Source: Sinomonas gamaensis (GTDB taxonomy: Bacteria > Actinomycetota > Actinomycetes > Actinomycetales > Micrococcaceae). From it: a stretch of DNA of 64,000 nt. The notes beneath the pieces were generated by a model. It was not told the origin of the DNA. It ran no database searches and saw nothing but the letters and a program-made list of their open reading frames with translations. Below, piece by piece: positions 3,054 through 17,079 of this stretch (its first letter is position 1; each line of letters opens with the position of its first letter). The stretch covers positions 186,001-250,000 of the forward strand of contig NZ_SSCL01000002.1 of the NCBI RefSeq assembly GCF_005876955.1, written 5' to 3'. A program made the position numbers and the translations under genes.

Positions 3054-3137
3054 GCGCGGGTGGCGGAATGGCAGACGCGCTAGCTTGAGGTGCTAGTGCC
3101 CGTTTAGGGCGTGGGGGTTCAAGTCCCCCTCCGCGCA
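3054..3137 (+). tRNA. tRNA-Leu (anticodon GAG)
   Basis: An 84-nt class II tRNA. The 7-bp acceptor stem pairs GCGCGGG with the CTC CGCGC side (one G-U pair). The anticodon stem CTAGC/GCTAG encloses loop TTGAGGT, so the anticodon is GAG, reading CUC/CUU leucine codons. A long variable arm and the GGTTCAAGTCC T-loop are present. The discriminator is A3137. The 3' CCA is not encoded. It is followed directly by a strong terminator. Confidence 0.97.
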
Positions 3138-3144
3138 CAATCTG

Positions 3145-3310: not shown

Positions 3311-3394
3311 GCGCGGGTGGCGGAATGGCAGACGCGCTAGCTTGAGGTGCTAGTGCCCGTTTAGGGCGTGGGGGTTCAAGTCCCCCTCCGCGCA
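3311..3394 (+). tRNA. tRNA-Leu (anticodon GAG), second copy
   Basis: Identical across all 84 nt to the copy at 3054-3137, including anticodon GAG, the long variable arm and discriminator A3394. Flanking DNA is diverged, but a similar -10 box upstream and a terminator downstream are kept. It is therefore a separate transcription unit rather than a polycistronic tRNA. Confidence 0.97.
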
Positions 3395-3413
3395 CGGATG
3401 TGATGAGACATTG

Positions 3414-11936: not shown

Positions 11937-13349
11937 ATGGCGCCGAAACGAGTGTTGGCAATCGTCCTGGCCGGTGGAGAGGGAAAGCGGCTCATGCCGC
12001 TCACGGCGGATCGTGCGAAACCGGCCGTGCCGTTCGCGGGAGCGTATCGGCTCATTGATTTCGCGTTGTCGAACCTGGTGAACTCGGGGTACCGGCACAT
12101 CGTGGTGCTCACGCAGTACAAGTCGCACAGCCTCGACCGCCATATCTCCGAGACCTGGCGGCTCTCGACCCTCCTGCAGAACTACGTTGCCTCCGTTCCC
12201 GCCCAGCAGCGTGTGGGGAAGAGCTGGTTCCTCGGCAGCGCGAACGCCATCTACCAGTCGCTCAATCTCATCTACGACGACCAACCGGACATCGTCGTCG
12301 TCGTCGGCGCAGACCACGTGTACCGCATGGACTTCGAGCAAATGGTCCAGGCCCACATCGCGTCCGGCGCGAAGGCGACCGTCGCCGCCGTGCGCCAGCC
12401 CCTCAGCATGGCGAACCAGTTCGGCGTCATCGAGACCGACTCCGCCGATCCCGGGCGCATCGCCGCGTTCGTCGAGAAGCCGCCGACGACGCCCGGCCTG
12501 CCGGACGCCCCAGATCAGTTCCTCGCGTCCATGGGGAACTACGTCTTCGACTCCGACGCGCTCGTCGAAGCGCTCAAGCGGGATGCCGAGCGCCTGGACA
12601 CGAAGCACGACATGGGCGGCGACATCGTCCCCTACTTCGTCGAGCGCGGCGAGGCCGGCGTCTACGACTTCACCCTCAACGAGATCCCCGGCGCAACCGA
12701 ACGAGATCGCACGTACTGGCGGGACGTGGGCACCATCGACTCGTTCTACGACGCCCACATGGACCTCATCTCCCCGCTGCCGGTCTTCAACCTCTACAAC
12801 TCCAAATGGCCCATCTACACGCACCAGAGCGTCTCACCGCCCGCGAAGTTCGTGCGCGGCGTCGGAGGCCGGATCGGCTCCGCCCTCGATTCGATCGTCT
12901 CGAGCGGCGTCGTGGTCACGGGCGGCTCCGTCGAGGGTTCCGTCATCTCGCATGATGTGCGCGTCAACGCCGGCGCACGGGTGCTCGACTCGGTGCTGAT
13001 GGACGGCTGCATCGTCGGCGAGGGCGCCGTCATCCATCGCGCCATCCTCGACAAGAACGTCACCGTCCCCCCAGGCGCCACCATCGGACTCGACAGCAAA
13101 CTGGACAAGCAGCGCGGCTTCCAGGTGACCGATTCGGGGATCACCGTGCTCGCGAAGGGACAGTCGGTGCCCGAACCGAGCGAGGACGAGAAGAACCTTG
13201 CCGCAGCGTGGGCGTCCGAGCACCCCGCCGAGTTCGAAGACAGGACTCAATCCCGGGCCGCTGAGGCGAGTGCCGCAACCGGGAACGGACAGCGGGAAGC
13301 CGATGCGCCGTCGTCGGCCGCTGAGGCAGCGGAGGCCGCGCCCCGGTAG
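11937..13349 (+). CDS. glgC: Glucose-1-phosphate adenylyltransferase
   Basis: A 470-residue enzyme that makes ADP-glucose from glucose-1-phosphate and ATP, the committed step of glycogen synthesis. The nucleotidyltransferase domain begins at [27 protein letters not shown] and the left-handed beta-helix C-terminal domain follow. The last about 55 residues are an Ala/Glu-rich tail beyond the usual 410-420 residue core and look disordered. ATG at 11937 lies about 13 bases after an AGAAGAGA purine stretch. Divergent from the glgM-like gene with 108 bases between starts, which must hold both promoters; I could not assign them reliably. Confidence 0.95.
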
Positions 13350-13360
13350 ACTTGGAGGCC

Positions 13361-14830
13361 ATGAGCTCCACCGATCCCGCGTCCCCCGAGACTCTCACCC
13401 CGGAGGAAATCCAAGCCTGCCTCAAAGTGCTCGGCACCATCCACAAGTACGACGAGGAACACCCGGATTTTGTCGCCGTGCGGCGCGCCACGGGCAAGAT
13501 GTTCAAGGCGCACCGCCGGTTCACCCGGAACCAGAAGCGGGACGCGATCGCCGACGCCGATCGGGCTGTCCTCGCGCAGACCGCAACGGCCGCCCCGGAC
13601 AGGATCGACGACGAGACCAAGGGCAACAAGCTCAAGCCCTCGGCTACCGGCAGAATCGCCGGGCACCTGATCCGTGCTCGCGCCTGCTACATCTGCAAAC
13701 AGCCCTACACCCAGGTCGACGCCTTCTACCACCAGCTGTGCCCTGAATGCGCGGCCTTCAGCCACGCAAAACGCGACGCGCGGACAGACCTCACGGGTCG
13801 GCGCGCCCTCCTGACGGGCGGGCGCGCCAAGATCGGCATGTACATCGCGCTGCGGCTTCTCCGCGACGGGGCCCACACGACCATCACCACGCGGTTCCCC
13901 AAGGACGCTGCGCGCCGCTTCGCCGCCATGGAAGACAGCGGCGAGTGGCTGCACCGCCTCCGCATCGTCGGTATTGACCTCCGCGACCCGTCCCAGGTGA
14001 TCTCGCTCGCCGAATCCGTGGATGCCGAGGGCCCGCTGGACATCATCATCAACAACGCGGCCCAGACGGTCCGCCGGTCCCCCAACGCCTACCGCCCGCT
14101 GGTCGAGGCCGAAGATGAACCCCTTCCCGCCGAGCTTCTGGCGTCGAACGGCGGCCCGGAGCTGCTCACCTTCGGGCACGCCCACGACAAACACCCACTG
14201 TCCATTGCCGGAAGCGTCACCGGACACCCCGTCCTCGCCCCTGACGCTGTGACCGCGCTCGCCCTCTCCACGGGATCAGCCTCGCTCGAGCGGATCGAGG
14301 CCGGAACCGCGATCGACGCAGGGGGACTCGTCCCCGACGTGGCGAAGATCAACTCCTGGACGCAGGTGGTGGAGCAGGTCGACCCCCTCGAGATGCTCGA
14401 AGTTCAGCTCTGCAATGTCACGGCGCCCTTCCTGCTGATCAGCAGGCTCCGGGAAGCGCTCCGCCGATCGACTGCACGCCGGAAGTACATCGTGAACGTC
14501 TCGGCCATGGAAGGCCAGTTCGGGCGGAAGTACAAGGGTCCCGGCCACCCCCACACCAATATGGCGAAGGCATCCCTCAACATGCTGACGCGGACCAGCG
14601 CCGGCGAGATGTTCACGACCGACCAGATCCTCATGACCGCGGTCGACACCGGGTGGATCACCGACGAACGTCCTCACTACACGAAGGTCCGCCTGGCCGA
14701 CGAGGGCTTCCACGCTCCGCTCGATCTCGTGGACGGGGCCGCGAGGGTCTACGACCCGATCGTCATGGGCGAGGCAGGCACGGATCTCTTCGGCGTCTTC
14801 CTCAAGGACTACAAGCCCTCCCCCTGGTGA
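13361..14830 (+). CDS. SDR-fold oxidoreductase with N-terminal zinc-ribbon
   Basis: A 489-residue protein. Residues 1-108 are a helical domain; a CYIC...CPEC pair (C109, C112, C127, C130) forms a probable zinc ribbon; a Rossmann domain then begins with LLTGGRAKIGM (about 151-160). A long insertion (about 245-320) separates the NNAAQT segment from the catalytic region. The serine in VNVSAMEG is present, but the position four residues before the Lys of NMAKASL is Thr, not the usual Tyr. ATG at 13361 has GGAGG four bases upstream, so the TTG at 13352 is rejected. It begins 11 bases after glgC and may be cotranscribed. The substrate is unknown. Confidence 0.8.
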   Translation: MSSTDPASPETLTPEEIQACLKVLGTIHKYDEEHPDFVAVRRATGKMFKAHRRFTRNQKRDAIADADRAVLAQTATAAPDRIDDETKGNKLKPSATGRIAGHLIRARACYICKQPYTQVDAFYHQLCPECAAFSHAKRDARTDLTGRRALLTGGRAKIGMYIALRLLRDGAHTTITTRFPKDAARRFAAMEDSGEWLHRLRIVGIDLRDPSQVISLAESVDAEGPLDIIINNAAQTVRRSPNAYRPLVEAEDEPLPAELLASNGGPELLTFGHAHDKHPLSIAGSVTGHPVLAPDAVTALALSTGSASLERIEAGTAIDAGGLVPDVAKINSWTQVVEQVDPLEMLEVQLCNVTAPFLLISRLREALRRSTARRKYIVNVSAMEGQFGRKYKGPGHPHTNMAKASLNMLTRTSAGEMFTTDQILMTAVDTGWITDERPHYTKVRLADEGFHAPLDLVDGAARVYDPIVMGEAGTDLFGVFLKDYKPSPW

Positions 14831-14959: not shown

Positions 14960-15301
14960 ATGAACGTTATCGAGCAGGTCCGCGAGGGAATGCAGGTCGT
15001 CGGGCCGGACGGGAAGAAGATCGGCAAGGTCGAAGACCTCAAGATGGGCGATGCGGAAGCGGTGACCGCGGAAGGGCAGACCGATCCCGAAACCGGGGGG
15101 CTCATCGGCACCTTCGTCGATCAGTTCGCGGAGACCTCCAAGGTGCCTCGCCACGTCGCGGAAAGGCTCCTGCGGCTGGGCTACGTGAAGATCGACAAGT
15201 CCGGCCTGTTCGCAGGGCACGAATTCGTCGCCGCGGATGAGCTGGACCGGGTCGAGGGCGACACTCTCTGGCTCAAGACGGGCCAGCCCGCCGGCCAGTA
15301 G
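14960..15301 (+). CDS. DUF2171 domain protein
   Basis: A 113-residue soluble protein. The N-terminal part IREGMQVVGPDGKKIGKVEDL-type segment (residues 4-29, here starting IEQVREGM) is the DUF2171/PRC-barrel-like beta module; the second half has a similar strand pattern around YVKIDKSGLFAGHEFVAADEL. ATG at 14960 has GGAAAGGA upstream. Family members are common in actinobacteria and Deinococcus; they have no established function, though PRC-barrel relatives bind partner proteins. It is monocistronic, and its stop lies 3 bases from the convergent transglutaminase stop. Confidence 0.8.
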   Translation: MNVIEQVREGMQVVGPDGKKIGKVEDLKMGDAEAVTAEGQTDPETGGLIGTFVDQFAETSKVPRHVAERLLRLGYVKIDKSGLFAGHEFVAADELDRVEGDTLWLKTGQPAGQ

Positions 15302-15304
15302 TCG

Positions 15305-16156
15305 TTAGGCGAGGCGCGTGATCTCCACCGAGACGTCGAGATGGGAGCCGCCGCCGCCCGAGAGGATGCCCTTGAGCGGCGGGACGTCCCGATAGTCGCG
15401 CCCGCGCGCCACAGTGACGTGGTAATCCCCCGCCGGCTTGTGGTTGGTGGGGTCCCAGCTGCGCCACTCCCCGTCCCACCACTCAAGCCACGCATGGGAC
15501 TGGCCGGCCACCGCCTCGCCGATGTCCGCCGTCGACCGCGGATGGAGGTACCCGGAAATATAGCGAGCCGGGATGCCAAGGCTCCGCAGCGACCCGATCG
15601 CGAGGTGGGCGAGGTCCTGGCAGACGCCCTGCCGCTGTTTCCACGCCTGCTCTGCGTCGGTGGTCACCCCGGTGCTCCCGGGCATGTAGCGCATCTCGCC
15701 CCGCAGCCACTCGAAGACTGCGTGGGCGGCTGCGTGGGGGTCGAGGTCTCCTGCGAGCCCCGGGACGATGTCCAATACCTCGCTTCCGGGACCGGAGAGT
15801 CGTGACTGCGGGAGCCAATCGCTGAACTGGTCCTCGACCTCGGGACTCCTCAGTCGCTCCCAGGAGACGATGGCGCCGTCGGCGGGCACTCGCTCGACCC
15901 GATGCACCTCGACGGTCGTGGTCGAGGTGACTTCGAGGTACTCGTGCGGGATCTGCATGTCGAAAGCGGTGACCCGGGTTCCCCAGTAGTCCTTGTACGA
16001 GCTCACGGCGGCCTGGGAAGGCAGGACACGGACCTGCGACTCGAGCACAACCTGCTGGGGTTCGGTGAGCGGCGTCATCCGGGCCTCGTTGTAGCTCAGG
16101 GTGACGCGCTGGTTATAGCGGTACGCGGTCCGATGGACAATCCTCAACCGGGTCAT
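15305..16156 (-). CDS. Transglutaminase-like cysteine protease family protein
   Basis: A 283-residue protein with a bacterial transglutaminase N-terminal beta domain (about 1-90) and a transglutaminase-like core. The triad is C179 in QGVCQDLAHL, H221 in SHAWLEWW and D235 in WDPTNH. No signal peptide is visible, so it should act in the cytoplasm as an amidase, protease or acyl transferase. It overlaps the alpha-E gene by 4 bases and is third in the ATP-grasp/alpha-E/transglutaminase operon. Such conserved linkage suggests the three modify or cleave a peptide or amide product together. The substrate is unknown. Confidence 0.88.
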   Translation of the reverse strand: MTRLRIVHRTAYRYNQRVTLSYNEARMTPLTEPQQVVLESQVRVLPSQAAVSSYKDYWGTRVTAFDMQIPHEYLEVTSTTTVEVHRVERVPADGAIVSWERLRSPEVEDQFSDWLPQSRLSGPGSEVLDIVPGLAGDLDPHAAAHAVFEWLRGEMRYMPGSTGVTTDAEQAWKQRQGVCQDLAHLAIGSLRSLGIPARYISGYLHPRSTADIGEAVAGQSHAWLEWWDGEWRSWDPTNHKPAGDYHVTVARGRDYRDVPPLKGILSGGGGSHLDVSVEITRLA

Positions 16157-17079
16157 GACACCTCTCCCACCCAGGCCTGCTCGTCGGCCCGACTGAAGTA
16201 CTTGCGCGAAATGGCGTCCGACGCCTGCGCGACCGCTTTCTGGACGCGCTCCATATGCTCGGGAAGTTCCATCATGAGCTCATCCGTACGGTGGAACTCA
16301 AGGAACGTGCGGGCCTGTCCCACGATCCGGCGCGCGTCGTTGATGAGTCCGAGACGGGTGTCAGACGGGTCGAGCTTGGCAAGGGCCTCGTCGGCATCCC
16401 TCAGCGCATACACGATCGACCGCGGGAACAGCCGGTCCATGAGCAGGAACTCTGCCGCATGCCGATCGTCGAACGACACCCGGCGGGTGCGGAGGAAGGA
16501 CTCGTAGGCTCCGGCGCACCGAAGCATGTTGACCCAGGACATCCCCGCGGTATGGACCTCGCGTGTGGACAGCATGCGTGCTGTCATATCGGCCCGTTCG
16601 AGCGAACGCCCCAGCACGAGGAACAGCCAGCTCTCGTCGTGGCTCATCGTGGTGTCGGTAAGCCCGCCGACCATCGCGGTCCGTTCGAGGACCCAGTGGC
16701 AGAAACGGTAGGTCCCGACGACGTCCTTGCGATGCTGGCTCAGGCCGTAATAAGTGGTGTTGAGGCACTCCCAGAGGCTCGACGAGACGGTCTCACGTGC
16801 ACGGCGGGCGTTCTCCCGAGCCGCTCCGAGGGAGCCCGCGATGGAGGTCGCGTGCGAGCGGTCGTACGCCAGAATCTGGAGCAGCTCGGCGAGCCCGAAG
16901 TCTTCGTCCTCCGGGCGGGAGCCCATGACCGCCAGCAGCTCCTGCGCGACGCTGTGCTGGTCTTCCGGCGGGAGGTGGTTGAGGCGCTCGAGGTGGACAT
17001 CGAGGATCCGGGCGGTCCCGTCAGCGCGCTCGACGTAGCGGCCGATCCAGAACAGGGATTCAGCGATGCGGCTGAGCAA
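16153..17079 (-). CDS. Alpha-E domain protein (DUF403)
   Basis: A 308-residue all-helical protein of the alpha-E family. It opens with the conserved MLSRIAESLFWIGRYVERAD; WECLNTTYYGL, the LxRAD-like ERADMTARML and the C-terminal MMELPEHMERVQ segments are also typical. There is no transmembrane segment or known catalytic motif. It lies 57 bases after the ATP-grasp gene and overlaps the transglutaminase gene (ATGA). Comparative genomics in the literature links this family with circularly permuted ATP-grasp enzymes and predicts a peptide-modifying role; biochemistry is lacking to my knowledge. Confidence 0.9.
   Translation of the reverse strand: MLSRIAESLFWIGRYVERADGTARILDVHLERLNHLPPEDQHSVAQELLAVMGSRPEDEDFGLAELLQILAYDRSHATSIAGSLGAARENARRARETVSSSLWECLNTTYYGLSQHRKDVVGTYRFCHWVLERTAMVGGLTDTTMSHDESWLFLVLGRSLERADMTARMLSTREVHTAGMSWVNMLRCAGAYESFLRTRRVSFDDRHAAEFLLMDRLFPRSIVYALRDADEALAKLDPSDTRLGLINDARRIVGQARTFLEFHRTDELMMELPEHMERVQKAVAQASDAISRKYFSRADEQAWVGEVS

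Follow-up and report, generated by a model that had tools for sequence, protein, structure and literature searches.

A conserved SDR-superfamily protein with a putative zinc module and a possibly rebuilt catalytic centre

Introduction

Few enzyme superfamilies are as large as the short-chain dehydrogenases/reductases (SDRs), and an active-site tyrosine is treated as their hallmark. A gene at positions 13361-14830 of the window, by which we mean the whole 64,000-nucleotide stretch of DNA from Sinomonas gamaensis that was analysed, raises the question of what an SDR-like protein does when threonine stands in place of that tyrosine. The original prediction had proposed an altered reaction or a non-catalytic, regulatory or nucleic-acid-linked role. 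A search of the open-licence literature found no publication on such a protein.

Results

Identity of the gene product

The open reading frame at 13361-14830 (forward strand, as are all features below unless stated otherwise) opens with an ATG, and its product is 489 amino acids long, followed by a stop. A TTG three codons upstream of the ATG offers an alternative start; we take the ATG as the likely one because the open frames of four congeneric genomes (G001, G006, G008 and G010), at 491 residues, are two residues longer than the aligned protein. The protein matched the Pfam model adh_short at 49.1 bits (cut-off 26.6; E 6.3e-13). Of the Pfam families, adh_short and adh_short_C2 alone exceeded their thresholds, and the match is strongest over the first half of the SDR domain. 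Likewise, adh_short was matched at E ≤0.1 by 51 of 51 family members. The best NCBIfam matches scored about 33-51 bits against cut-offs of at least 215 (best 25 of 157), and therefore no named NCBIfam family applies; 15 diverse relatives match the same generic NCBIfam SDR models as the 489-residue protein does (25 of 118 families listed). In two annotated records the family protein has no more specific name than "SDR family NAD(P)-dependent oxidoreductase".

The full-length structural model, made with 47 sequences, had a mean pLDDT of 83.6 and a pTM of 0.82; the other four models averaged 72.8-76.4. A Rossmann-type SDR fold is present in this predicted model, for which the best VIA-align row was tropinone reductase I with NADP (1ae1_B; Z 24.2, rmsd 2.5, 235 residues); other rows tied with it, lying within Z 1. 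Foldseek returned 1788 matches to the same model at E ≤0.001, and a profile of the whole family compared with the PDB matched SDR-type chains only, among the 60 listed of 237 matches. By homology and predicted fold, then, the protein is a member of the SDR superfamily, and its subfamily is without a name in the libraries that we searched.

Comparisons across the family are based on 150 loci, from which we retained 135 proteins, no two of them alike over the final 350 residues; the set includes the protein of the window, and the lowest identity in it is about 37%. The two SDR motifs TGxxxGxG and NNAG occur as TGGRAKIG and NNAA and align with the corresponding motifs of the host's SDRs. In the cofactor loop TGGRAKIG (residues 152-159; 13814-13837) the second glycine of the pattern is shifted by one place, as in TGGxxxIG forms, and G153, G154, R155, K157 and G159 are found in 135 of 135 proteins. 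The NNAG-type motif continues into a family-specific QT-x-x-R, together NNAAQTVRR (residues 231-239; 14051-14077), of which N231, N232, A233, Q235, T236 and R239 are common to all 135. With the insertion described below and an N-terminal module, the protein reaches 489 residues, as against the approximately 250 expected of a classical SDR.

Active site

When a 47-sequence profile of the family was aligned with 30 SDRs of the host genome (hhalign; probability 99.5, E 2.2e-22), T399 fell on the catalytic tyrosine, A382 (14504-14506) on the catalytic serine, K403 on the catalytic lysine and N352 (14414-14416) on the tetrad asparagine. T399 and K403 lie in HPHTNMAK (residues 396-403; 14546-14569), whose first histidine, H396, is itself invariant. 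The replacements are not a peculiarity of one genome: threonine stands at the tyrosine of YxxxK and alanine at the serine in 135 of 135 proteins, and the same 135 retain N352 and K403. A tyrosine of the FabI type, seven residues before the lysine, is also absent, H396 and T399 occupying those places throughout. In the same alignment the family has about 95 more residues than classical SDRs between NNAA and N352, and four more before HPHTNMAK; the insertion region (residues 240-340; 14078-14380) contains the invariant residues Y244, E251, D326, N331 and W333. The threonine that the original prediction had read at the Y-x3-K position (TNMAK) thus sits on the catalytic tyrosine and is fixed, and the long insertion that it had placed in the catalytic region is there; the loss of the serine goes beyond what it had claimed. 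As judged by its catalytic residues in these alignments, the protein is not a classical SDR. Two of the four catalytic residues are missing in all relatives examined, and such sequences probably betoken unusual chemistry.

As a yardstick we used the host's own SDRs, represented by 46 places matching adh_short at E 1e-10, among which the gene at 13361-14830 does not figure. The tyrosine column was legible in 45 other host SDRs (L211 being the one that the alignment did not cover), and 43 of these keep Tyr-x3-Lys. One exception, L214, has a tyrosine with a lysine seven residues later, and the Tyr-x3-Lys found at its locus belongs to the neighbouring gene. We also note a host SDR-like protein, L210, that has serine and arginine at the expected tyrosine and lysine positions.

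These observations bear on the simplest account of the family, namely that Thr399 and Ala382 are harmless and the protein reduces carbonyls much as FabG does. That substitutions of this kind can be tolerated is indicated by E. coli FabG, which stays active when the residues assigned to its triad are substituted, with single mutants reported to be 20-50% below wild type (PMC7973133). The constancy of the tyrosine in the host's other SDRs nevertheless argues against such an account, as does the absence of any drift away from threonine and alanine among the 135 proteins, and the insertion and the invariant residues E384, K392 and H396 are absent from the aligned classical SDR. We consider an ordinary reductase very unlikely.

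A second account is that the catalytic tyrosine has moved, so that an invariant tyrosine elsewhere, most likely Y244 of the insertion, donates the proton at the nicotinamide. Y244 is present in 135 of 135 proteins just past NNAAQTVRR, and SDRs that do without the usual tyrosine exist, the 2,4-dienoyl-CoA reductases being an example. The tyrosine that lies beside the active-site lysine in the sequence, Y391, is on the other hand not invariant (128 of 135), an objection that does not touch Y244. A relocated tyrosine seems to us improbable.

Eight marker positions, C109, C112, C127, C130, N352, A382, T399 and K403, are identical in 135 of 135 proteins, so these features are not due to chance; H396, E384, K392, Q235, T236, R239 and Y244 are equally invariant. 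Positions at least 99% identical make up 56% of residues 376-414, the highest share, followed by 38% of residues 146-239, 35% of 415-489, 26% of 341-371, 14% of 99-140, 6% of 240-340 and 0% of 1-98. Gaps, which stem from truncated rows, were scored as misses, so that the figure for residues 1-98 is a minimum: at T74, all 132 rows that cover the position have threonine, and the other 3 have a gap. Conservation thus peaks in the active-site stretch, which is not what one would expect of a pseudo-enzyme in decay, but conservation alone does not separate catalysis from tight sensing of a ligand. Within this stretch, residues 381-400, the active-site loop, were modelled with low confidence (mean pLDDT 60-69).

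N-terminal module

Ahead of the SDR domain the models place a helical hairpin (residues 14-72; 13400-13576), variable in sequence, and a module at residues 99-139 (13655-13777) consisting of a strand, a CYIC knuckle, a second strand and a helix that starts at CPEC. The original prediction had proposed C109, C112, C127 and C130, directly before TGGRAKIG, as a likely zinc site, and had named loss of the cysteines in close homologues as evidence to the contrary; in the alignment of 135 proteins no cysteine has been lost and the threonine, too, is invariant. We infer from the four invariant cysteines that the module would bind zinc, and we take it to be structural rather than catalytic.

The block is predicted with some assurance, at pLDDT 82-94 in the full-length model and 89-98 when residues 1-149 were modelled alone (mean pLDDT 88.9, pTM 0.69). 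The N-terminal model has helices at residues 14-27, 35-72, 81-86 and 128-139, the last of which begins at the second CxxC, and a beta-hairpin of residues 99-108 and 115-120, with CYIC right behind its first strand. A treble clef consists of a knuckle, a beta-hairpin and a helix with the second pair of ligands in its first turn; a zinc ribbon has two CxxC knuckles on two beta-hairpins. In the model, the shape of the module therefore resembles a treble clef more closely than a zinc ribbon. The term zinc ribbon, as originally applied, finds some backing in weak Pfam matches to DZR_2 (double zinc ribbon; 4 of 51 members, best E 0.015) and to the Spt4 zinc finger (3 of 51, best E 0.091; on the 489-residue protein the score is 13.3 bits, the cut-off being 25), but in the model the second cysteine pair stands at the start of a helix. 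DUF2039 was weakly matched by 10 of the 51 members (best E 0.0058). The N-terminal 149 residues gave no significant fold match in the PDB (best E 2.7; best of 108 chains Z 2.2); FYVE, RING, nuclear receptor and ribosomal S14/S29 chains, which we take to be treble-clef proteins, appear in that non-significant list.

Distribution

Two queries were run separately, with a threshold of E 1e-8, against 396 genomes of the phylum, among them that of the window: residues 372-489, and an 82-residue stretch that holds the zinc module and also spans the cofactor loop and the beginning of the SDR domain. In gene-rich genomes, scoring covered the top 11 to 14 candidates of each genome. The two stretches fell on an identical set of 38 places, distributed over 37 of the 396 genomes, and neither was found without the other in these genomes at this threshold. 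A full-length search at E 1e-40 likewise returned 37 of 396. One genome, G059, has two copies, the second of which (L071, 5608-6972) is 48% identical and keeps the cysteine set, Ala382 and Thr399.

The gene is present in the window's genome and in all 14 of the 14 congeners searched, in one (G022) of nine genomes representing the other genera of its taxonomic family, in one (G031) of 14 representing the remaining families of its order, and patchily elsewhere in the phylum. A scan of named genomes found at least 586 relatives among at least 594 stretches matching the sequence pattern, the closest 80 of which come mostly from Arthrobacter and its relatives, Microbacteriaceae, Nocardia, Rhodococcus and Mycolicibacter/Mycolicibacterium. 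The family is present in many soil actinobacteria. Among 72,556 plasmid records four match at E 1e-30, the same four being returned by a query with a distant relative, and one of these is a Deinococcus record with 48.6% identity over 78% of the query, which is evidence of spread beyond the window's phylum. Records titled Sporosarcina and Acidobacteria do not count as such evidence, since the samples of those phyla return places from the window's phylum (G445, for example, is G022); the titles are probably misassigned. The two records in question, L089 and L090, hold 80-82% identical copies adjoining glgC.

We also considered an origin in defence or in mobile elements. PADLOC gave no match, a search of 50,697 phage records with a threshold of E 1e-15 found no relative, and no viral contig among 20 pattern matches held one; together with the count of four plasmid records, these results led us to reject such an origin.

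Genomic neighbourhood

The gene follows glgC, which encodes glucose-1-phosphate adenylyltransferase (11937-13349; NTP_transferase E 1.5e-66 and LbH_GLGC E 2.9e-7 in Pfam), and the coordinates bear out the 11 bases originally counted between the glgC stop (13349) and the SDR gene. In 35 of the 150 family loci glgC adjoins the SDR gene, and the proteins of these loci are at least 79.7% identical to the window's; one of them (L001) is the window itself, and L159, L160 and L170 duplicate L023, L090 and L089. Flanks were scanned up to 10 kb in named genomes, about 6 kb in L066-L073 and 1.5 kb in most other loci. No glgC was seen near L091 (79% identical, 10 kb flanks), and L018 (89.6%) starts at a contig end and so is blind to the adjacency. 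Among the 150 loci the arrangement is confined to those of Micrococcaceae type, glgC standing beside copies at least 79.7% identical and beside none of the others within the flanks; because the adjacency is limited to this lineage, we rejected a general role in glycogen metabolism by way of an operon. Local co-transcription with glgC in Micrococcaceae is possible. An apparent fusion to glgC in L012, a 972-residue open frame, proved to be two genes in different frames.

We looked for neighbours that recur in other lineages among 43 representative loci, counting clusters found in at least five, and found none across lineages besides the family gene itself and frames overlapping it; nor did the predicted gene lists of 13 loci show a common partner by eye. 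With no steady neighbour across lineages, the context names no pathway. A nucleoside hydrolase occurs in 7 of the 43 loci at distances of 27 to 9313 bases, and we judged it incidental; another cluster occurs in nine of the loci at scattered distances. Four loci of Microbacteriaceae type have upstream genes in common. In loci of Nocardia, Rhodococcus and Prescottella type (L108, L121, L131, L132 and L138) a small membrane-like protein is encoded on the same strand, 4-517 bases downstream.

Several other features of the window were noted. After the SDR gene comes a short protein (14960-15298) with a borderline match to DUF2171 (25.6 bits; cut-off 25), and then, on the reverse strand and convergent with the SDR gene, transglutaminase-like and Alpha-E proteins (15308-17079); at the corresponding place in a Paenarthrobacter locus (L076) there are genes with similar beginnings. 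Elsewhere in the window lies a pair of tRNA-Leu(GAG) genes (3054-3138 and 3311-3395), 172 bases apart and identical over all 85 bases, and the 53 bases preceding each copy are unlike.

These findings can be set against a third account, in which the protein is a catalytically dead sensor or regulator whose SDR domain reads NADP(H) and whose zinc module and hairpin touch a partner protein or nucleic acid. The replacement of two of the four tetrad residues in 135 of 135 proteins would suit a sensor, as would the occurrence of the zinc module at all 38 places in the 396 genomes where the active-site stretch was found. Yet conservation is highest in the active-site segment and lowest in the N-terminal hairpin, a likely partner surface; no neighbour recurs across lineages in the 43 loci; and the N-terminal PDB matches, not being significant, suggest no type of partner. 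We hold a sensor to be doubtful. Of the two meanings first proposed for the protein, we accordingly favour the altered reaction, for which the fixed Thr399 (135 of 135) speaks, over a regulatory or nucleic-acid-linked role, against which the high conservation of the active-site segment weighs.

Discussion

We put at about even the chance that the protein is an SDR-superfamily enzyme that binds NADP(H) and has a rebuilt catalytic centre. In such an enzyme NADP(H) would lie in the usual place, where Arg155, Lys157 and Arg178 would suit the 2'-phosphate, and Lys403 and Asn352 would keep the nicotinamide ribose and a relay of water or protons. Proton transfer would fall to another invariant group, most likely His396, or else Thr399 acting through water. 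There are precedents: E. coli FabG stays active with its triad residues substituted (PMC7973133), and for imine-reducing enzymes proton donors other than the usual one, histidine among them, have been discussed (PMC7540600). The substrate would be polar and probably anionic, bound by Gln235, Arg239, Glu384, Lys392 and other residues, and the zinc module, placed right before the first strand, probably lends support both to the N-terminal helical hairpin and to the substrate side of the enzyme.

It is possible, at somewhat less than an even chance in our estimation, that the family as a whole is an unnamed subfamily, common across Actinomycetota and represented in Deinococcus, whose zinc module is obligately coupled to a rebuilt Asn-Ala-Thr-Lys site and which uses a reaction or a proton-donor system unseen in characterised SDRs. 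In this large and strictly conserved group the loss of both tyrosine and serine is fixed and was not found apart from the metal module in the genomes searched, so that the group lends itself to asking which residues SDR chemistry needs. We also note that the generic name in the records hides the difference in the active site, and that automatic assignment of function could be misled by it.

How does the family compare with known systems? Set beside the zinc modules of Pfam, its own module gives weak matches to DUF2039, DZR_2 and Spt4, none of them clear. The 2,4-dienoyl-CoA reductases, which are SDRs without the usual tyrosine, resemble the family in having the SDR fold with that tyrosine missing; a structure of the peroxisomal enzyme, 4fc6, matches the predicted fold with Z 22.9 and rmsd 3.1 over 248 residues. 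These reductases are not known to carry a zinc module. FabI-type SDRs carry a tyrosine seven residues before the lysine (YxxMxxxK), and, going by this motif, the family is like the FabI/InhA type in having a candidate proton donor seven residues before the lysine, His396 in place of their tyrosine, and unlike it in that its cofactor loop is of the classical type. With classical SDRs, such as tropinone reductase, FabG and glucose 1-dehydrogenase, the family shares the fold, the cofactor loop, an NNAG-type motif and the tetrad asparagine and lysine, and it differs from them in having alanine for serine, threonine for tyrosine, an insertion of about 95 residues, an N-terminal zinc module and a length of 489 residues.
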